Shown here piece after piece: positions 539 through 10,140 of a stretch of 13,579 nt of DNA. Source of the stretch: an uncultured Lachnospiraceae bacterium (GTDB taxonomy: Bacteria > Bacillota > Clostridia > Lachnospirales > Lachnospiraceae). Each line of letters starts with the position of its first letter. The first letter of the stretch is position 1. Position numbers and translations under genes: made by a program. Where the stretch lies: the NCBI GenBank assembly GCA_905236545.1, contig CAJOQO010000242.1:1-13579 (forward strand), read 5' to 3'. The notes under the pieces were generated by a model, which saw nothing but the letters and a program-made list of their open reading frames with translations, was not told the DNA's origin and searched no databases.

Positions 539-556
539 CCTGCCTGCTCAGGCAGG
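539..556 (-). terminator. Short perfect hairpin over the end of the TRAP permease gene
   Basis: CCTGCCTG and its reverse complement CAGGCAGG are separated by only two bases, so a 7 bp stem with a 4-base loop can form. The hairpin includes the permease stop codon (550-548). On the minus strand it is followed by CTTTCTG and then the ribosome binding site of the kinase-like gene, with no real T-tract. It is therefore more likely a partial attenuator or RNA-stability element than a full terminator. Confidence 0.3.
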
Positions 557-2506
557 GGACGCACTCTTCTTCCCCGCCATCGTGATCACAAAGACCACAA
601 CCGTGATGGCAATTCCGATCAAATCGGTTACCAATCCCGGATAGATCAGCATCAGTCCGGCAACCGCCAGCAAAGCTCTGAACAGCGGATTCAGCCTTGT
701 CGTCATATACCCTTCCAGAGCCGCAGAGATCGCATACATTCCTATCACGCTGGTGATGATGATCAGGACAAATTCCGGAATATTCGTGTCGATCAGCAGC
801 ATCGCCGGATTCAGGCAGAAGATATACGGAATCAGAAATGCGCCGATCGCCAGCTTGGAAGCATTCAGCGCGGTCCGCATCGGATCCGACTTCGCGATCG
901 CGGAGCCCGCATAGGCCGCCAGGGCTACCGGAGGCGTGATGTCCGCAACGATTCCGAAATAGAACACAAACATGCTGGCGCAGATCGAATTCAGTCCCAT
1001 GCCCGTCGTAAGGATCGGCGCGCAGGTCGTCGCCATGATGATATAGGTCGCCGTCGTCGGAACGCCCATGCCCAGAACGATGCAGCAAAGCATCGTAAAG
1101 ATCAGCGCGATCAGGAGGTTTCCGTTGGAAATATTCACGATAACATCGATGAAGACCTGTCCGAGTCCGGTCATCGTTACCACGCCGGCAATGATTCCCG
1201 CGATGCCGCAGGCAACCGCGATACTGAGCGTATTCTTCGCACCGGTTTCCAGAGCGTCAAGGAACTTCTTCGGCGTCATGCGGTGTTCTTTGTTGAACAT
1301 GCTGACAACGATGCACAGAACCGTCGCAATAATCGCAGCTCTGCTCATCGTATAGCCGGCCGTGATCAGATACACCAGCGCTACCAGGGGAATCAGCAGA
1401 TAGATCTTCGGCAGGATCACCTTCGCCTTCGGCAGCTGTTCTCTCGGAACGCCCTTCAGCCCGAGACGCTTCGCTCTGAGATGAACCATCAGGAAGATGC
1501 CCGTGAAGTAAAGAACTGCGGGAAGAATCGCCTTAATAACGATCTGGGAATACGGAACGCCGACCATCTCCGCCATCAGGAACGCCGCCGCACCCATGAT
1601 CGGAGGCATGATCTGTCCGCCGGTGGACGCTGCCGCCTCTACCGCGCCGGCAAACTCACCCGGGTAACCGGTTTTCTTCATCATCGGGATCGTCACGGAG
1701 CCGGTCGTAACCGTATTGCCGACCGAAGAGCCGGAAACCATGCCGCACAGAGCTGACGAGATAACCGCCACCTTCGCAGGACCGCCCGAAGCGGAACCGG
1801 CGATGGTGTTCGCGCACTGGATAAAGAAATCCGAGATTCCTGTCGCTTCCAGAAACGCGCCGAAGATAATGAACAGAACAATATATGTGCTGCAGACGCC
1901 GACCGGGGTTCCGATCACGCCCTCCGTGGTATAAAACAGGTTGTAGATAATGATGTTCAACGACTTTCCGACCGCAAACGCGTACACGACAAAGCATGCC
2001 GCGACGATAATAATGGGAATGCCGGTCACCCTGCGGCAGCACTCCGCAAGGATCACAATACCGATTACGCCAAGCCATACCTCGAGATCAGAGATACGGA
2101 TCCCATGCTTGATGATAGCCTGGCTGTTGATTACAAAATAGAAAAAGCTTCCGGATCCGGCAGCAGCCAGGATCACATCATAGATCGGAATGCGATTGGG
2201 CTTCTGCGGCTTTCCTCCGGACTTTCTTGCCGGATACAGGATAAAGACGAATATGATCACGATGCCCAGGAACAGCGGGCGGCGGATCCTCTCATCCCAT
2301 ACCGCAAACAGATTCATATAGATCATGAAGGCTGAGAACGCGGCAAGCATCACCTTGATCACGATCGCCGGGATCCCCTCCCATGGCCGGACGTTGGATT
2401 CCCGGTCATATTTTTTCATCAGCTCCTCGACATCCGCGGCACTGCCGACGGAAGGATCTTCAGCCGGAGCTGTCTTCAGTTTGTCTTTCTCATTGTTGTC
2501 TTTCAT
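548..2506 (-). CDS. TRAP transporter fused permease (4TM + 12TM subunits, TAXI-type)
   Basis: This 652-residue membrane protein belongs to the fused TRAP permeases that pair with TAXI binding proteins. It uses an ion gradient to import a substrate, usually an organic anion, delivered by the binding protein. A soluble acidic N-terminus of about 45 residues is followed by many hydrophobic helices. The small (4TM) part covers roughly residues 45-190 and the large part roughly 195-645. Family signature motifs are clear: SGSSVGNTVTTGSVTIP at 258-274, STGGQIMPPIMG at 294-305, LGMGVPTTATYI at 478-489 and ADITPPVALAAYAGSAIA at 521-538. The ATG at 2506 was chosen because GAAGAGG lies 6 bases upstream. 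A longer frame reaches an ATG at 2533, but that start lacks a ribosome binding site and would contain this one. The gene lies 64 bases after the DUF1850 gene in the usual TAXI operon order. The substrate cannot be read from sequence. Confidence 0.95.
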   Translation of the reverse strand: MKDNNEKDKLKTAPAEDPSVGSAADVEELMKKYDRESNVRPWEGIPAIVIKVMLAAFSAFMIYMNLFAVWDERIRRPLFLGIVIIFVFILYPARKSGGKPQKPNRIPIYDVILAAAGSGSFFYFVINSQAIIKHGIRISDLEVWLGVIGIVILAECCRRVTGIPIIIVAACFVVYAFAVGKSLNIIIYNLFYTTEGVIGTPVGVCSTYIVLFIIFGAFLEATGISDFFIQCANTIAGSASGGPAKVAVISSALCGMVSGSSVGNTVTTGSVTIPMMKKTGYPGEFAGAVEAAASTGGQIMPPIMGAAAFLMAEMVGVPYSQIVIKAILPAVLYFTGIFLMVHLRAKRLGLKGVPREQLPKAKVILPKIYLLIPLVALVYLITAGYTMSRAAIIATVLCIVVSMFNKEHRMTPKKFLDALETGAKNTLSIAVACGIAGIIAGVVTMTGLGQVFIDVIVNISNGNLLIALIFTMLCCIVLGMGVPTTATYIIMATTCAPILTTGMGLNSICASMFVFYFGIVADITPPVALAAYAGSAIAKSDPMRTALNASKLAIGAFLIPYIFCLNPAMLLIDTNIPEFVLIIITSVIGMYAISAALEGYMTTRLNPLFRALLAVAGLMLIYPGLVTDLIGIAITVVVFVITMAGKKSASPA

Positions 2507-2570
2507 ACAAAACCTCTTCATACTTCCGTGCATGGTTCAGCACTCTGCATTCCATGACCTGAGCAGCGAA

Positions 2571-3086
2571 TCATTCCAATGCAAACCTTACCATTGCATT
2601 TCTCCCACACAGATCACGAAGACTGACCTGCTCTCCATTCTCCAAAGTAAGGACATGATCCGATACCGTTCCCACAAAATAAACCAGATCATCCATCCTG
2701 CGGTCGAACCCGGTGATAATCATGCTGCCGTCGCTTCCATACTCCAGCTTCTGTCCTTCTTCCAGTTCCGTCTGAACACCGGCACCGAATCCATAGTACA
2801 CCGTTTTCACGACATAGATCCCGTCATCCCGGATCTCATAGTAGTCAGTAACCGGGCTTTTATTGACCGAATGGACAAATCCGACGCTGAAGGTGTCGGA
2901 TTCACGGACCGGGAAGCGGGCATAAACCTTACCGGTCTTCGCGGACGAGAGCACCAGACGCAGGCCATGATGCTGATACGCAAATGCGGCAGCCAGAACC
3001 GCAAAAACAAGGATCAGGACTGCCGCAATTCTTTTTACTCTCAGTGCTCCCGTTTCTGATTGATCCGAAGCACTCTTTTTACTCAA
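2571..3086 (-). CDS. DUF1850 domain protein of the TRAP-TAXI operon
   Basis: A small membrane-anchored protein of about 171 residues. One N-terminal hydrophobic segment (RIAAVLILVFAVLAAAFAY) is followed by an extracytoplasmic domain. The core motifs VGFVHSVNKSPVTDYYEI, then YYGFGAG, then ELEEGQ are typical of DUF1850, a family known for lying between a TAXI binding protein and a fused TRAP permease; its function is unknown. It sits in exactly that place here. The start is unclear. The preferred start is the TTG at 3086-3084, which overlaps the stop of the upstream gene as TTGAGTAA, with a weak AGGG 8 bases upstream. The only in-frame ATG upstream (3128) lies deeper in the preceding gene, has no ribosome binding site, and would place a charged stretch before the membrane segment. 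Translational coupling to the upstream gene is likely. Confidence 0.85.
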   Translation of the reverse strand: MSKKSASDQSETGALRVKRIAAVLILVFAVLAAAFAYQHHGLRLVLSSAKTGKVYARFPVRESDTFSVGFVHSVNKSPVTDYYEIRDDGIYVVKTVYYGFGAGVQTELEEGQKLEYGSDGSMIITGFDRRMDDLVYFVGTVSDHVLTLENGEQVSLRDLCGRNAMVRFALE

Positions 3087-4035
3087 CCTCGATGCCCTGC
3101 TCCTCGTAGTACTTTCTGGCACCCGCATGGAACGGAACGCTGATGCCCTTCACAGCATCTTCAACGTTCAGGAACTCGAACTTCGAATGTCCGGCAATCA
3201 GATCCTTCTGGTTGTCAAACATCGCCTTCAGAAGCTCGTATACGGCAGCTTCACTGACATCGTTGGAAGCGATCAGTGTAGCGCGGACGGAAACCGTGGT
3301 CGCATCCTTGTCGACTCCGTTGTAGGTGCCGGCCGGGATCACCGTCTCGGTGTAGAAATCATAGTCGCCCTGGAGCTTCTTGATGTGCTCGGCGTCCAGC
3401 TGAACCAGGCTGATGTCCTTCGTGGTTGCCAGATCGACAACAGCAGTCGTCGGAGCGCCCGCAACGATAAAGGCAGCATCGATCTTTCCATCCTTCAGGC
3501 TGTCGGCGGAATCACCAAAGGATGCATTCACGACATTGATATCATCAAAGCTCATGTCATAAGCTGCCAGGATCTGCTTCGCGTTAAACTCAACGCCTGA
3601 TCCCGCGTCGCCGACGGAAACGGTCTTTCCCTTCAGATCCGCCACGCTCGAGATGGAGCTGTCGCAGGTGATGATCTGAACCGTCTCATCATAAAGGCCT
3701 GCCACGGTGGAGAAGGTCTCATACGCGCCCTCATCCTCGAACAGATCCGTCCCTGTATAGGCATAAAACATAACATCATTCTGAACGATTGCCAGATCAG
3801 CTTCTCCCACGTCAACCAGCTGGATATTCGCCTTCGATGCGCCGGTGGATGTAACGGTCAGGCTGGATTCTTTCAGAACCGGATTCAATACCGTCGCCAT
3901 AACACCGCCTACCGCATAGTAGGTGCCGGTCGTTCCACCGGTTCCAAGGGTCAGGTTATCCGCTGCCATAACAGCCGTGGATGCCCCGAGGACCATAGCC
4001 GCCGCCATCACGATTCCAGAAATTCTCTTTTTCAT
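3079..4035 (-). CDS. TAXI family TRAP transporter solute-binding protein
   Basis: A 318-residue exported binding protein that captures the substrate for the TRAP permease encoded two genes downstream. The start is the ATG at 4035, with GGAGG 7 bases upstream. A Sec signal peptide covers residues 1-24 (KKR, then a hydrophobic core, then AVMA) with likely signal peptidase I cleavage before ADNLTLG. The mature protein opens with GTGGTTGTYYAVGG (31-44), the glycine-rich ligand-site motif diagnostic of TAXI proteins, and ends with the family's usual tail (HAGARKYYEEQGIEVE). There is no lipobox cysteine, so nothing visible anchors the protein to the membrane. The few characterised TAXI proteins have been linked to glutamate or dicarboxylate-like ligands, but ligand identity here is open. 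It is the first gene of the TRAP operon and follows its own promoter. Confidence 0.95.
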   Translation of the reverse strand: MKKRISGIVMAAAMVLGASTAVMAADNLTLGTGGTTGTYYAVGGVMATVLNPVLKESSLTVTSTGASKANIQLVDVGEADLAIVQNDVMFYAYTGTDLFEDEGAYETFSTVAGLYDETVQIITCDSSISSVADLKGKTVSVGDAGSGVEFNAKQILAAYDMSFDDINVVNASFGDSADSLKDGKIDAAFIVAGAPTTAVVDLATTKDISLVQLDAEHIKKLQGDYDFYTETVIPAGTYNGVDKDATTVSVRATLIASNDVSEAAVYELLKAMFDNQKDLIAGHSKFEFLNVEDAVKGISVPFHAGARKYYEEQGIEVE

Positions 4036-4136
4036 GCATGTACCTCCATCATTATAAGTTTTGCCAGTTCCCACAGCAGACATTCACATCCTGCCGGAGG
4101 TTCCCCCCGGAACAGCCCGCAAGAGAGCAATCAGAT

Positions 4137-4164
4137 AAAAAAATGCCTGCAAATATACAGACAT
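4137..4164 (-). terminator. Rho-independent terminator hairpin with T7 tract
   Basis: On the minus strand ATGTCTG (4164-4158) and CAGGCAT (4149-4143) form a 7 bp stem with one G-U pair and an 8-base loop, directly followed by a run of seven T (4143-4137). It would stop transcripts arriving from oppA. Its 5' arm overlaps the -10 box of the TRAP promoter, so transcripts begun there should lack that arm and escape termination. Confidence 0.7.
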
Positions 4165-4191
4165 TTTAACGCTTTATTGTATAAAAGTCAA
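4156..4191 (-). promoter_or_regulatory. Sigma-A-type promoter for the TRAP-TAXI operon
   Basis: The -35 box TTGACT (4191-4186) and -10 box TAAAAT (4168-4163) are separated by exactly 17 bases; each differs from consensus at one position. Transcription would begin near 4156, leaving an untranslated leader of about 120 bases before the TAXI gene. That leader contains a GC-rich 7 bp hairpin at 4110-4094. Confidence 0.75.
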
Positions 4192-4252: not shown

Positions 4253-6001
4253 TTATCTTCCGAACTGCGCGTCGTTGTTTCCGGAATCGGTCAGCCACAT
4301 CTCAAGCATGTTGATCGGGTCATTGTAGTCTGCCAGCCATCCTTCACGGGCAAAGTCAAACTGTCCGTTCTTTCTGTCGTTCAGGAAGACATTCCACTCT
4401 TCAGACTTGATCTCCATATTGATGCCGACAACCGCCAGATCCTGCTGGATCGACTGAGCAACCGCCACATGGCCGCTGCCGTCATTGGTCAGGTACTCAA
4501 CCGAAATCGGAGTTGAGGAGGACAGCATGTTGTTGTCATCAAACTCGAATCCTGCTTCCTTCAGAAGCTCGACTGCCTGATCCACCATCGAAGCGCCGGT
4601 CGCGGTCGGATCGTAGTATCCAACGCTCTCCTCGCCGTCGAAGTCCCAGACGACCGGGTACTCATACGCGTCATCATTTTCCATGAAGACACCGCCCTGT
4701 CCGTCCGCCATTCCTGCCGGAATGAACGCGCCGGCCGGCTGCTGCCCGGTCTGTCCGACAGCGTCAACAATATACTGACGATCGATCAGAAGAGAGAACG
4801 CCTCTCTCATCTTTGCAGCCTGCTCCGGCGTCTTGCCGTCAAACAGCTTGCTGTTGACGTTAAACGCAACATAGTAGGTGCCAAGGTTCGGGACGATGAA
4901 GAAATCATCATTCATGATGATGTTTGCGATCTCATCATTCGGAACGGTATCGATAAACTGCAGGGATCCATCGTTGTATGCGTTGTAGATCGCTGTGTCA
5001 TCCGCGCTCAGCATGAAGTTGATCTTATCCAGCGTCACGTTGTCCGCGTTCCAGTAGTTCGGGTTCTTCTCATAAGTCATGGACTCGTTGTGCTTCCATG
5101 CGGTGCAGGTCATCGGGCCGGAGGTTACAAAACCGCTCTCCAGAGCCCATGCACCCGGGTTCGCTCCTTTCGGATCCGCCTCGGTGACAGCCTGTTCGGG
5201 AACCGGGAAGAATGCGGGGAATGCGCAAAGATCAAGGAAGTACGCGCACGGCCGGGTCAGGTGGCAGGTGAAGGTCAGGCCATCATCGGACGCCTCGATG
5301 GCGAGTGTTCCGTCATCGTTCTTCGCAAGATTCATGGAATCGCACAGATAGCTGTAGTCAGCAGCGGTATTCGGATCCGCAAGGCGGTTCCAGGAATACA
5401 CCAGGTCCTCTGCATCCAGCTTCTCGCCGTCCGACCACTTCAGACCATCCCTGATCTTGAAGGTATAGGTCAGGCCATCCTCGGAAACCTCCGGCAGATC
5501 CTCTGCCAGTTCCGGAACCAGTTCCCCGTCCTCATCATACGCAAACAGACCGGAAAATGCCAGGATCGCCAGGCATGCGCCGTCCACGGAGCTGTTCAGC
5601 GCCGGATCAAGGTGGTCAGGCTCTGACGCAAGGTTCGCGTTCAGTTCATTGTCCGGTGCGGACATATATGCGAAATACTTAAATCCGAACAGGTTGGAAT
5701 ACAGGCCGCTGCATTCGGTATTCAGCATATAGATATCATTATAATAATAGATCGGGATGACAGCCCACGTCGCCATCAGCTCATCTTCCGCCTCATGCAT
5801 CAGGGCTTCACGCTTTGCAAGATCCGTCTCCTGATAGATCTTTGCGATCTTGGCGTTGTAATCATCCCAGTCCGGAGCCGCCTCTGAGCTCTTTCCGGAT
5901 GATTTTGCTGCTTCTGCTTCCGTCTCCGCCATCACGGTCATTCCGAAAGAAGACAGCACCATTGTACCGGCAAGCAGTACAGATACCATACGTTTCTTCA
6001 T
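4253..6001 (-). CDS. oppA: Oligopeptide ABC transporter substrate-binding protein, apparently circularly permuted
   Basis: A 582-residue exported binding protein of the SBP_bac_5 (OppA/DppA) family, expected to capture peptides for the OppBCDF importer encoded just upstream. The start is the ATG at 6001, with AAGGAGGAGG upstream. Residues 1-25 form a signal peptide ending in TVMA, without a lipobox cysteine, followed by a low-complexity linker (26-42). Residues 43-114 (PDWDDYNAKI, then AVIPIYYYND at 80-89, then GLYSNLFGFKYF) match the segment that normally ends family members; in E. coli OppA the counterpart is SPAFDSIMAE through IVPVYYYVN. Residues 116-582 then run through the normal N-terminus (LASEPDHLDPALNSS), LKWSDGEKLDAEDLVYSW at 187-204, NPNYWN at 313-318, and FDFAREGWLADYNDP at 548-562. 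The protein stops at NNDAQFGR, where the tail would normally begin. The frame is intact. It has seven cysteines, many for an exported binding protein. Family membership is very secure; the permutation is read by comparison from memory. Confidence 0.95.
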   Translation of the reverse strand: MKKRMVSVLLAGTMVLSSFGMTVMAETEAEAAKSSGKSSEAAPDWDDYNAKIAKIYQETDLAKREALMHEAEDELMATWAVIPIYYYNDIYMLNTECSGLYSNLFGFKYFAYMSAPDNELNANLASEPDHLDPALNSSVDGACLAILAFSGLFAYDEDGELVPELAEDLPEVSEDGLTYTFKIRDGLKWSDGEKLDAEDLVYSWNRLADPNTAADYSYLCDSMNLAKNDDGTLAIEASDDGLTFTCHLTRPCAYFLDLCAFPAFFPVPEQAVTEADPKGANPGAWALESGFVTSGPMTCTAWKHNESMTYEKNPNYWNADNVTLDKINFMLSADDTAIYNAYNDGSLQFIDTVPNDEIANIIMNDDFFIVPNLGTYYVAFNVNSKLFDGKTPEQAAKMREAFSLLIDRQYIVDAVGQTGQQPAGAFIPAGMADGQGGVFMENDDAYEYPVVWDFDGEESVGYYDPTATGASMVDQAVELLKEAGFEFDDNNMLSSSTPISVEYLTNDGSGHVAVAQSIQQDLAVVGINMEIKSEEWNVFLNDRKNGQFDFAREGWLADYNDPINMLEMWLTDSGNNDAQFGR

Positions 6002-6041
6002 TTTGTTCCTCCTCCTTAATGGATAAAATAAAAACATCCTG

Positions 6042-6102: not shown

Positions 6103-7083
6103 TCATTTATTCCAGCATGCGACCATATGCCCGTTTCCACGGTCTGTCAGGGCCGGCATCTCCTGCGCGCAGTGATCGGTCGCGAGCTTGCATCTCGTAC
6201 GGAACGGGCAGCCGCTCGGCATATGCAAAGGGCTCGGCACGTCTCCCTCCAGGATGATTCTCCTGCTGGTCTTCGCGATCTTCGGATCCGGATAAGGAAC
6301 AGCGGAAAGCAGGGAGGTCGTGTAGGGATGAACCGGATTCGCATTCAGCTCGTCCGCGTCCGCTGTCTCCACCATTTTTCCGAGGTACATGACCGCGATC
6401 CTGCTCGAGATGTGGTGCACCACGAGAAGATCGTGCGCGATGAACAGATACGCAACTCCAAGCTTATGTTGCAGATCCTCAAACATGTTGATGACCTGCG
6501 CCTGAATCGACACATCCAGCGCGGAAACCGCTTCGTCGCACACGATAAAGCGGGGATTCGTCGCGAGAGCTCTGGCGATTCCGATTCTCTGCCGCTGTCC
6601 GCCGGAGAACTCATGCGCATAGCGCGTCGCATGCTCCGCGTTCAGTCCGACCAGCTCCATCAGATTCAGGATCTGTTCCCTTCTGTCCGCCTTGTTTTTG
6701 TACAGCTGATGAACGTCAAGAGGCTCTCCGATGATATCCTCCACCGTCATGCGGGGATTCAGGGAGGAATACGGATCCTGGAACACCATCTGCATATCTT
6801 TTCGAAGTGAGCTGATGGACTTGTCATCCACCCGTTTTCCATCAAAGAAAACATCTCCGTCCGTAGGCTTGTACAGGCGGATCAGCGCTCTGCCCACCGT
6901 CGTCTTTCCGCAGCCGGATTCGCCGACAAGTCCCAGCGTTTCCCCTGGCCTGATCGCGAACGAGACACCATCCACCGCCTTGAGGGGCGTTCTGGAGAAC
7001 ATTCCGGTCTTCACGGGAAAGTACATCTTCAGGTCATTAACCTCCACCAGATTCTCCGGATTCGGCTTATAGTTCATATCCAT
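6103..7083 (-). CDS. oppF: Oligopeptide ABC transporter ATP-binding protein OppF
   Basis: A 326-residue cytoplasmic ATPase subunit that powers the peptide importer as a partner of OppD. The ABC motifs are complete: Walker A GESGCGKT at 54-61, Q-loop [11 protein letters not shown] at 100-110, signature FSGGQRQR at 159-166, Walker B FIVCDE at 179-184, D-loop SALD, and switch histidine 217. The C-terminal oligo_HPY region ([12 protein letters not shown], then GCPFRTRC, then the cysteine of DHC) carries four cysteines (292, 298, 305, 323). These match a conserved cluster of this subfamily that has been reported to hold an iron-sulfur centre in related dipeptide ATPases. The start ATG at 7083 has GGGAGG 8 bases upstream; a second in-frame ATG two codons later is possible. 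It lies 15 bases after oppD. The phrase [13 protein letters not shown] is typical of OppF rather than OppD. Confidence 0.96.
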
Positions 7084-7098: not shown

Positions 7099-8127
7099 TC
7101 ATTTCCCTGCTGCAGGCATGTCTTCCGCCCGGATCATCCCTGATTCGATCCCTTCCTGGATCGCTTTCCAGCAGGAAGCGTAGTGACCGTCAGGCGTGGG
7201 CATCTCAGGCGGCTGTTCCTCAAGGCAGATCTTCATCGCCTCATCGCAGCGCGGGCAGAACGCGCAGCCCTTCGGCATATTCAGCAGATTGATCGGCGTA
7301 CCGGAGATCGGCTCAAGCCGCTTCCCCATGGAATCAATCTTCGGGATCGAACGCAACAGCCCCTTCGTATACTCGTGGCAGGGACGGTAGAAGATATCCT
7401 CCGCCGTTCCTCTTTCGCATACCCGGCCGCCGTACATGACGATAATCTCATCCGCCATCTGCGCAATGACGCCCAGGTCATGCGTAACCATAATGATGGC
7501 CATTCCAAGCCTTCTCTGCAGATCCTTCATAAGATCAAGAATCTGGGCCTGGATCGTCACATCCAGAGCTGTCGTCGGCTCATCCGCGATCAGGATATCC
7601 GGCTCGCAGGCAAGCGCCATGGCGATCATAACCCTCTGCCTCATTCCGCCGGAAAACTCAAACGGATACTGGCGGATACGCTTCTCGGGCTCATTGACGC
7701 CGACCAGCTCCAGCATCTCGATCGCCCGCTTCTCCGCCTCTTTGCCTTTGTGGTTCGTATGAAGCCGGATGGCCTCCTTCAGCTGGTATCCGATCGTAAA
7801 GACCGGATTCAGGCTGGTCATCGGATCCTGGAAAATGATGGAGCAGCACTTTCCGCGAAAATCCCGCATCCTGCTCTCAGGCCAGTTTGTAATGTCTTCT
7901 CCCTTGTAGAGAATCCGGCCGGATCGGATGGATCCGTTTTTCTCCAGAATCTGCATCACGGAGTAGGCGCTGACAGACTTTCCGGATCCGGACTCGCCGA
8001 CGATCCCCAGGATCTTTCCCGCCGACAGGTTAAATGAGACGCCGTTGACCGCCTTCACCTCTCCCTTGTCTGTGTCAAAGGCGGTATGGAGGTCAATTAC
8101 GGACAGAATGCTCTTTTCTTCAGCCAT
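7099..8127 (-). CDS. oppD: Oligopeptide ABC transporter ATP-binding protein OppD
   Basis: A 342-residue ATPase subunit that pairs with OppF beneath the OppBC channel. Walker A GESGSGKS lies at 44-51, Q-loop IFQDPMTSLNPVF at 98-110, signature FSGGMRQR at 158-165, Walker B ILIADEP at 178-184 and switch histidine 216. FSGGMRQR with ADEPTTALDVTIQAQ is typical of OppD/DppD. The C-terminus has the oligo_HPY region with cysteines at 288, 291, 294, 301 and 319, one more than the usual pattern. The start is the ATG at 8127. An in-frame GTG at 8136 overlaps the oppC stop as GTGA, but the AGGAGG at 8141-8136 runs into that GTG and is correctly spaced only for the ATG. The neighbours oppC and oppF are within 15 bases on either side. 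Confidence 0.96.
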   Translation of the reverse strand: MAEEKSILSVIDLHTAFDTDKGEVKAVNGVSFNLSAGKILGIVGESGSGKSVSAYSVMQILEKNGSIRSGRILYKGEDITNWPESRMRDFRGKCCSIIFQDPMTSLNPVFTIGYQLKEAIRLHTNHKGKEAEKRAIEMLELVGVNEPEKRIRQYPFEFSGGMRQRVMIAMALACEPDILIADEPTTALDVTIQAQILDLMKDLQRRLGMAIIMVTHDLGVIAQMADEIIVMYGGRVCERGTAEDIFYRPCHEYTKGLLRSIPKIDSMGKRLEPISGTPINLLNMPKGCAFCPRCDEAMKICLEEQPPEMPTPDGHYASCWKAIQEGIESGMIRAEDMPAAGK

Positions 8128-8132
8128 CTTGC

Positions 8133-9215
8133 TCACCTCCTCAGCTTCGGGTCAAACGCGTCTCTCAGGCCGTCGCCAAGAAGGTTGAACGCCAGCGTGA
8201 TCAGACCGATCATAAGTGCGGGGAAAACCAGTTTATAGGTATAGGTTGTGATCCCGCTGCGCGCCGCGCTCGCCAGAGAACCGAGAGACGGCATGGGAGC
8301 CTTGACGCCCAGCGAGATGAAGCTCAGGAAGGATTCCGTAAAGATTGCCGAGGGAATCTGCAGAGCCGCCGAAATGATGATCACGCCGATACAGTTCGGC
8401 AGAATATGCCGGCGGATGATGCGCGGGCTCTTCGCGCCGCTGACTCTGGCCGCAAGGACATATTCATTCTGCTTGATCGTAAGGATCTGTCCCCTGACCA
8501 GCCTTGCCATGCCGACCCAGTACAGAAGGCCGAAAACGATGAAGAGCGAGATCATGTTCGTGCCCAGACGGGCAAGGATCCCATTGCCGTTAAACTTCAG
8601 GACTTCATTGAGAACGACAGACAGAAGAATGATCATCAGGAGGTCGGGAAGCGAATAGATCACATCCACGAACCGCATCATGATCAGGTCTACCTTCCCT
8701 CCAAAATATCCTGCGATCGATCCATACAAAACGCCGATGATCAGAACGATAATACTCGCAAAGACACCTACCAGCAGGGAGATTCTCGTGCCGTAGGCAA
8801 CACGGACAAAATAGTCACGACCGAGCTCATCCGTTCCCATGATGTGGGGGAATACCTTCCCGCCCTCATCGATATACTGCTGTTCCATCCGGGAGTAGGT
8901 GAACGGAGCCATATTGGTCGCGCTCTTGTCCCTCTTCCCGTTTACCGTGATGATGTCGGAATAGCTGTACGGCACCACGATCGGAACGATAATGATCATC
9001 AGGATGATCAGGATCAGCACAATGATGCTGAACATCGCGAGCGGATTCTTCCGCAGCTTCCTCATACCGTCCCGGAAGAAGGATGTGGACTCGCTCATCA
9101 CCTCCGCCTGTACCTTCTCCTCGTCGGTTGCTTTCTCAAACTTCCGAAGATCGATCTGCAGTGAGAGCGGATTCTTCTTTGGCATCTGATTGACATCGTA
9201 AGCTTCCTTTGCCAT
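8133..9215 (-). CDS. oppC: Oligopeptide ABC transporter permease OppC
   Basis: A 360-residue inner-membrane subunit that forms half of the peptide channel with OppB. A cytoplasmic N-terminal stretch of about 58 residues precedes the first membrane helix (LAMFSIIVLILIILMIIIV). An extracytoplasmic loop of about 50 residues with the conserved HIMGTDELGRDYFVRV motif follows, and then the BPD_transp_1 core of about five helices. The coupling (EAA-like) motif YVLAARVSGAKSPRIIRRH, which docks on the ATPases, is intact, and the C-terminus has LAFNLLGDGLRDAFDPKL, a strong OppC/DppC signature. The length is slightly above usual because of the long N-terminus. The ATG at 9215 has AAGGAGG 8 bases upstream and lies 13 bases after oppB. 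Confidence 0.96.
   Translation of the reverse strand: MAKEAYDVNQMPKKNPLSLQIDLRKFEKATDEEKVQAEVMSESTSFFRDGMRKLRKNPLAMFSIIVLILIILMIIIVPIVVPYSYSDIITVNGKRDKSATNMAPFTYSRMEQQYIDEGGKVFPHIMGTDELGRDYFVRVAYGTRISLLVGVFASIIVLIIGVLYGSIAGYFGGKVDLIMMRFVDVIYSLPDLLMIILLSVVLNEVLKFNGNGILARLGTNMISLFIVFGLLYWVGMARLVRGQILTIKQNEYVLAARVSGAKSPRIIRRHILPNCIGVIIISAALQIPSAIFTESFLSFISLGVKAPMPSLGSLASAARSGITTYTYKLVFPALMIGLITLAFNLLGDGLRDAFDPKLRR
8136..8141 (-). promoter_or_regulatory. oppD ribosome binding site inside the end of oppC
   Basis: AGGAGG is formed by the last two arginine codons of oppC, with the TGA stop right behind it and the oppD ATG 8 bases downstream. This decides the oppD start at 8127 and suggests coupled translation of the two genes. 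Confidence 0.75.
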
Positions 9216-9228
9216 GATACTCCCCTCC

Positions 9229-10140
9229 TTAATCCAGATTGATGCGCGGATCGATCAGCTTATAGACAATATCCGTCAGCAGATTCATCGTTACCATAAA
9301 GACCGCCAGGAAAATCGTAACCCCCATGATCATCGGGTAGTCACGGTTTGTAATGCTCTGTACAAACTCCGCTCCGAGGCCGCCGATCGTGAAGATCTGC
9401 TCAACAACCAGCGAACCCGTCAGAACCGAAGCAATCATCGGTCCAAGGTAGGTGACAACCGGAATCAGCGCATTGCGCAGCGTATGGACAAACAGAACCT
9501 TCCACTGGGCGACGCCCTTCGCGCGCGCCGTCCGGACGTAATCCTGTCCCATGACATCCAGCATGGACGTCTTTGTCAGCCTGGTGATATAGGCTGACGG
9601 ATACATGGCAAGCGCGATCACCGGAAGGAGCAGATTCTGGTGCGTCGGACTCCAGGCGCGGACCCAGCCGAGCTTCACGGAGAATATGACCAGGAGAAAA
9701 GACCCGAGAACAAAGCTCGGAAGCGATGTAAACAGGGTTGAAAGAAAGATAATCACCCTGTCCGGCCACCGGTTTCGCTGCAGTGCGGCGATGCTCCCGA
9801 ATATGATGCCGAGCGCGACTGCAAGAAGGACGGCATAGGCGCCAAGCTGCGCGGAAACAGCAAACTTGGAAAGGATCGTTTCCGCAATCTCACGTCCTGT
9901 CTTCGCGCTGATCCCGAAATCCCCATGCAGAAGATTCTTCATGTAGATCAGGAACTGCTGCCCCACCGGTTTGTCAAGATTAAACCGCTCCTCCAGAGCT
10001 GCCTGGACCTCCGGTGACTTTGCCTTCTCGCCCGCAAACGGTCCGCCGGGGATCGCATTCATCGTAAAGAACGTGATAAAGCAAACGATGAATATCGTAA
10101 TGATGGCGAGAAGGATCCTTTTGAATATGTACTTGCCCAT
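9229..10140 (-). CDS. oppB: Oligopeptide ABC transporter permease OppB
   Basis: A 303-residue inner-membrane subunit, partner of OppC. The N-terminal helix (RILLAIITIFIVCFITFF) followed by NAIPGGPF is the standard start of OppB/DppB proteins. A loop with LLHGDFGISAKTGREI leads into the core domain of about five further helices. The coupling motif YVRTARAKGVAQWKVLFVH and the C-terminal IGGLGAEFVQSITNRDYPMIMG and IDPRINLD stretches are classic. The start ATG at 10140 has AAGGAG 6 bases upstream. It is the first gene of the opp operon, with a strong promoter 50-80 bases before it. Peptide-length preference (oligo or di) and other substrates such as nickel cannot be settled from the permease alone. 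Confidence 0.96.
   Translation of the reverse strand: MGKYIFKRILLAIITIFIVCFITFFTMNAIPGGPFAGEKAKSPEVQAALEERFNLDKPVGQQFLIYMKNLLHGDFGISAKTGREIAETILSKFAVSAQLGAYAVLLAVALGIIFGSIAALQRNRWPDRVIIFLSTLFTSLPSFVLGSFLLVIFSVKLGWVRAWSPTHQNLLLPVIALAMYPSAYITRLTKTSMLDVMGQDYVRTARAKGVAQWKVLFVHTLRNALIPVVTYLGPMIASVLTGSLVVEQIFTIGGLGAEFVQSITNRDYPMIMGVTIFLAVFMVTMNLLTDIVYKLIDPRINLD

Follow-up and report, generated by a model that had tools for sequence, protein, structure and literature searches.

TpMglB-2 (Tp0684) of Treponema pallidum is a naturally permuted sugar-binding protein, placed in a "Type Ic/Cluster Bc" in the excerpts of its report on which we draw (PMC4990184). The same excerpts describe relatives in treponemes and in Gram-positive, often gut, bacteria, and a protein that binds its ligand and changes shape. 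A permuted binding protein is thus already known for cluster B, while a search for permuted OppA-type proteins returned no description among the best-ranked matches in the openly licensed literature; the OppA-type case is unusual in its recurrence. Here we analyse a gene whose product, judged from sequence comparison and modelling, very probably functions as the peptide-binding protein of an OppBCDF transporter. It is of the OppA type (family 5, cluster C) with a naturally circularly permuted chain, and is one of a group of proteins whose order has repeatedly changed, probably through duplication and trimming.

The window, the whole stretch of DNA that was analysed, comprises 13,579 nucleotides of a contig from an uncultured gut bacterium of the Lachnospiraceae, and all features given below lie on its minus strand. 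An intact frame of 582 amino acids (4253-6001) encodes, in this order, a signal, a linker, a tail, a head and a middle. The ribosome binding site AAGGAGGAGG (6008-6017) ends 6 nt before the ATG, which starts at 6001. Translation gives a signal peptide with an AxA-type site and without a lipobox cysteine, followed by a Ser/Ala/Glu-rich linker (together residues 1-41; 5879-6001). The displaced tail (residues 42-114; 5660-5878) is homologous, by alignments and profile, to the canonical OppA/DppE C-terminus. At the tail-to-head junction (residues 111-124; 5630-5671), delimited by an alignment across relatives and by a modelled strand at residues 119-124, the native C-terminus is fused to the native N-terminal strand. 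The head and middle (residues 115-582; 4256-5659), assigned to SBP_bac_5 through PF00496 (E 9.7e-82) and through the canonical profile described below, finish with the residues NNDAQFGR, and the stop codon directly behind QFGR (4253-4255) marks, in sequence and alignment, what we term opening A. D558, the Asp of an LADYNDP motif that is nearly invariant among relatives, is presumably the counterpart of the peptide-binding Asp of OppA.

A terminator-like hairpin of 12 pairs with a T tail follows the gene (4140-4167), predicted by a consensus scan only, which reported four such sites in the scanned region versus 1.8 (sd 1.4) in shuffles. The gene comes after oppB (9229-10140), oppC (8133-9215), oppD (7099-8136) and oppF (6103-7083), open reading frames supported by comparison with relatives; oppF, used as a query, retrieves its counterparts from further opp operons. 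In relatives, too, the gene lies beside oppBCDF. A sequence-only reading of this DNA had proposed the order signal, tail, head, middle, ending at NNDAQFGR, and had placed the gene, with its own ribosome binding site and a hairpin behind it, in an intact opp operon; frame, motifs and coordinates match that description, and each of these signals and neighbours is present. Behind the opp genes, the strand continues with a TAXI-type TRAP transporter set (548-4083), in which a binding protein (3079-4083), a small protein (2571-3128) and a permease (548-2533) were named by eye from their translations.

The displacement of the tail was visible in comparisons with proteins of known structure. When Bacillus subtilis DppE (8ay0) was compared by phmmer, query residues 119-441 matched chain residues 23-336, residues 482-576 matched 354-444, and residues 47-107 matched 452-512, the last being the tail block with an i-Evalue of 2.8e-4. 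B. subtilis OppA (8are) and the OppA of 9rd1 gave the same three blocks, the tail block alone being weak (i-E 0.92 and 0.82). A canonical profile built solely from 16 normally ordered relatives aligned residues 37-113 with its positions 449-525 and residues 120-582 with its positions 1-446, so that the C-terminal segment, last in the canonical order, is N-terminal in the window protein. The tail alone scored 107.4 bits against this profile (E 3.8e-32), versus a top score of 5.8 bits among 1000 shuffles of the tail, 753 of which were reported, which answers the earlier concern that the tail might align no better than random sequence. The proposal to align both blocks to the SBP_bac_5 profile held for the head and middle, since residues 160-576 match positions 1-367 of 368 in PF00496 (275 bits, curated cut-off 32.4); it was unworkable for the tail, which lies outside this "Middle" model. 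That exclusion may be why permuted proteins look normal in annotation. Against NF011684, the NCBIfam OppA equivalog, the window protein scores 211 bits, below the cut-off of 947, and on this score it is a distant relative outside that equivalog.

Structure prediction, suggested earlier as a check, yielded a confident AlphaFold model with pLDDT values of 90-97 in the tail, falling to about 30 at residues 1-30 and 68 at residues 31-40, where signal and linker lie. The structure matches listed for this model are OppA/DppA-type family 5 proteins, and sequential aligners cover only residues 112-582; the modelled fold is of the OppA type. A model of a canonical protein (L102, from 16 rows) had a pLDDT of 71.5, a quality insufficient for a control.

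Whether relatives share the order had been left open by the sequence-only reading, which recommended a search of genomes; the order proved to be widely shared, and further relatives are opened elsewhere. Of the 19 genomes of the genus, 16 have it, the window's own included; three of these 16 have partial genes and a further one an in-frame stop, and the remaining three of the 19 contain no close copy. Among 80 named loci, 59 read tail-head-middle, 3 are truncated yet begin in that order and 18 are canonical. Since merged residue ranges from the locus search mask chain order, loci were mapped individually, and the "full-length" L102, L117 and L106 are canonical once mapped. In protein searches, all 121 proteins formed by the query and its best 120 of 5023 hits are permuted. 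Comparison of the window gene with seven relatives gave dN/dS values of 0.03-0.14 for the tail, 0.06-0.17 for the other folded segments and 0.15-0.50 for signal and linker, ratios that are rough, with several dS values close to 1 or higher. All folded segments, the tail included, are under purifying selection. The shared order and the dN/dS values rule out a pseudogene, and loss of the C-terminus without replacement is likewise ruled out, its tail being present and conserved at the N-terminus. Profile matches, conservation across species, purifying selection, the oppBCDF neighbourhood and the confident model all point to a circular permutation with retained function, as had been proposed.

Some relatives show features of their own. 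P0049-P0081 and L020/L048 are close relatives of 760-831 amino acids; in two of them that were read fully, P0049 and P0074, lipobox and tail are separated by a long linker of Ala/Glu-rich repeats. P0082 carries two pairs of CxxC-type, zinc-ribbon-like motifs in its N-terminal linker, odd for an exported binding protein, and in the permuted protein of L084 a transmembrane-like segment at the start, together with a coiled-coil-like linker, takes the place of a lipoprotein signal. At L136, in the single-contig genome G312, one in-frame stop splits a type A gene into frames of 404 and 206 residues, reflecting either a pseudogene or a sequencing error; the two pieces were kept separate. Downstream of the gene, L095 (7076-7231), L100 (7092-7220) and L041 (7900-8028) show weak head-like matches of 22-30 bits, perhaps further binding-protein genes.

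A profile of the tail-to-head junction was used to find contiguous tail-head stretches in genomes. With the window's own genome included at each rank and with thresholds that differ between ranks, such stretches occur in at least 27 of 397 genomes of the family, at least 5 of 295 of the order, at least 8 of 391 of the class and, with a broader profile, at least 9 of 348 of the phylum; the figures are minimum values, as scoring was restricted to part of the candidates in genomes rich in them. The window's opening A falls at c446/449 on the canonical profile, about residues 582|37-42 of the window protein. Three more openings, each joining the native C-terminus to the native N-terminus, were found in other genomes: B at c107-110 (L149-L151; window residues about 227-232), C at c342-376 (L165, L178-L180, L185, L187-L191 and L193; about 480-500) and D at c261-274 (L175 and L183; about 383-396). 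In the model, the openings fall within or next to loops, and the stretch absent in D includes a three-residue helix. Curated models made from other proteins agree with these orders at the level of sequence matching. In L149 (B), residues 48-416 match NF011684 positions 157-521 and residues 472-519 match TIGR04028 positions 37-85; in P0122 (C), residues 194-542 match NF011684 positions 39-378 and residues 55-171 match positions 406-526 of a SapA model; in P0123 (D), residues 63-275 match NF011684 positions 314-521 and residues 294-558 match NF007287 positions 31-298. Protein searches added two Limnochordaceae MAGs as carriers of C (P0131, P0132) and Helicovermis profundi (P0244) and Fusibacter bizertensis (P0273) as carriers of D; a D query had 50 D proteins among its best 120 hits, and a C query had 35 C proteins among its own best 120, the others being canonical.

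The number of changes was then estimated on trees. On a careful 77-row protein tree (core and tail), A needs 4 changes, 3 of them forced by supported branches, and the AU test rejects A as a single clade (p 8.1e-69). A second careful tree, with 81 rows of rotated proteins, thinned by hand from 149 by omitting near-duplicates, additional type A sequences, a number of canonical groups and rows on long branches, as well as L016 (in-frame stop) and L107 (contig end), requires 13 state changes overall; A needs 7, only 4 of them forced, and A, C and D are each one-sided in 0% of 200 bootstrap trees. D as a single clade is rejected (AU p 1.8e-80), and C marginally so (AU p 0.028). A quick protein tree with one extra row gives 6 changes for A. 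Since the binding protein itself could mislead, an independent tree of 52 rows and 1288 columns was built from OppB, OppC, OppD and OppF, thinned from 83 rows by omitting mostly close relatives and L232, whose Opp genes are aberrant. There, supported branches force all of the 5 changes that A needs; A is one-sided in 0% of bootstraps and is rejected as a single clade (AU p 3.2e-33), while B is a single clade in 80% of bootstraps; a quick 83-row version, in which L107 is counted as A, gives 6 changes for A, all forced.

The A proteins of L065 and L090/L107 lie on the Opp tree among the canonical L098, L104, L112 and L117, four A rows have the canonical L233 as their sister, and a D row (L212) pairs with the canonical L242. 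Of the remaining canonical rows, L099 differs in position between trees, and L097 lies inside A on the protein trees and outside the Opp tree sample since its contig ends. If A never reverts, 10 gains are required on either tree; at equal costs the numbers are 7 (protein) and 5 (Opp), with changes of A in both directions, such that gains and reversions are not firmly separable. A short low-complexity insert sits exactly at the A loop in canonical relatives of the A clade and is absent from canonical outgroups such as L160, L162, L164 and L166; it may be the scar of a reversion or mark a permissive loop, and the larger insert at this loop in L181 and L183 means that it does not settle the direction of change. 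A distant protein of type A (L220, G367) is left unplaced because of its very long branch, and the type A operon of a Treponemataceae MAG (L080) groups with Clostridia-titled loci on the OppBCDF tree, through either transfer or a binning error. The best reading is that OppA-type proteins have been permuted repeatedly, at four places.

Such changes would start from a tandem gene duplication, pass through an in-frame fusion of tail to head and end with trimming at surface loops, the route that PMC3320104, in the part consulted, gives for permutation by duplication (tandem copy, fusion, trimming). Adjacent SBP genes in several genomes (G129, G427, G362, G1170, G1275 and G1298), short tail-head junctions and the linker-like character of opening A fit this route; no two-tail intermediate was seen in 363 database proteins or in 217 mapped locus and protein frames, and the duplication step is accordingly a proposal. 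The permuted protein would bind peptides between its two lobes and pass them on to OppBC as canonical relatives do; the main consequence would be that the signal, the linker and, in most relatives, the lipid anchor attach to a different lobe.

The window genome is a MAG of 349 contigs, 72% complete, a setting in which tandem oppA copies might have been collapsed or misjoined. This misassembly reading, raised as a possible refutation by the sequence-only reading, is already refuted and its probability negligible, since the order recurs in separate assemblies across the genus and in the named loci, which come from separate records and include the isolate Porcincola intestinalis (L046), and since types A (G226), C (G716 and G1238) and D (G1002) are present in single-contig genomes. 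A single ancient permutation inherited vertically, with scattered canonical copies explained by tree error or gene replacement, would account for all type A proteins being opened at one place, and basal branches of the OppBCDF clade commonly carry A, so that a single origin with reversions fits part of the tree. We regard this history as improbable: one-clade trees for A are rejected with both data sets, a return to canonical order is itself a permutation, and B, C and D require separate events regardless.

Repeated permutation being the better account, the question becomes what drives it. With OppA domain limits that we take as given, B opens domain II and A, C and D open domain III, so that an N-terminal anchor leaves domain I in all four. 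Selection might favour this relocation, the lipid or linker attachment moving from domain I to another lobe and altering docking to OppBC. A lipoprotein-type signal is kept in 3/3 B rows, 2/2 D rows and 29/38 A rows (27 recognized with a rough pattern and 2 by eye), and tethering was proposed as a possible driver by the authors of TpMglB-2 in the excerpts of their report (PMC4990184). In DppABCDF, according to excerpts of its report, a scoop of DppB contacts both lobes of DppA (PMC12136057), and a moved tether could therefore alter docking. Lipobox loss occurs among permuted rows and in none of the 32 canonical rows (29 scored by pattern, 3 by eye), a comparison that ignores relatedness. Yet 3/6 type C rows and the window protein have no clear lipobox, which means that a lipid anchor is not always involved, and the same operon is served by canonical and permuted forms. 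Selection for the relocated anchor is a less than even bet. Permuted proteins in which neither a rough pattern nor inspection by eye showed a clear lipobox cysteine are P0001, L015, L068, L080, L128, L142 and L159 (A) and L185, L188 and L193 (C). The changes may instead be neutral, the fold tolerating several loop openings, tandem copies arising and the orders being equally good. The positions of the openings in or beside loops, the adjacent SBP genes and the parsimony changes in both directions speak for neutrality, which we hold to be somewhat better than an even bet; that a few loops were used over and over suggests a degree of constraint, and the missing two-tail intermediates count against it. 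Tolerance of the fold together with tandem copies is more likely than a specific advantage. One could speculate, at less than even odds, that in Clostridia and related Bacillota chain order switches repeatedly, in both directions and at four preferred places, as in a natural permutation scan, with selection acting on the shift of the anchor between lobes.

Within one common family of transport proteins, normal and permuted relatives serve the same operon and share 50-59% identity with the window protein whatever their order, and four openings occur. Such natural pairs allow direct tests of how folding order, the position of the anchor and the dynamics of the lobes matter. The natural openings might also inform the design of binding-protein sensors. 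For annotation, the case is a warning that permutation is easily overlooked where the Pfam model misses the tail, and that tools assuming sequential order miss it altogether. DNA methyltransferases are permuted in several ways. These enzymes and saposin/swaposin are, in the part of PMC3320104 consulted, likewise families with natural permutation, yet not transport proteins, and for the methyltransferases partly duplicated intermediates are reported there, in contrast with the present case. TpMglB-2 is likewise a naturally circularly permuted substrate-binding protein; compared by description from the excerpts of its report, it has the cluster B sugar-binding fold and one reported topology, whereas the proteins described here belong to cluster C and show four openings and several switches. 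With canonical OppA, DppE and MppA (family 5, cluster C; 1ola, 8are, 8ay0 and 3o9p), the window protein shares its sequence family, its modelled fold and the oppBCDF operon, but its natural termini are joined and its new ends lie in a C-lobe loop (A), with related lineages opened at three others.
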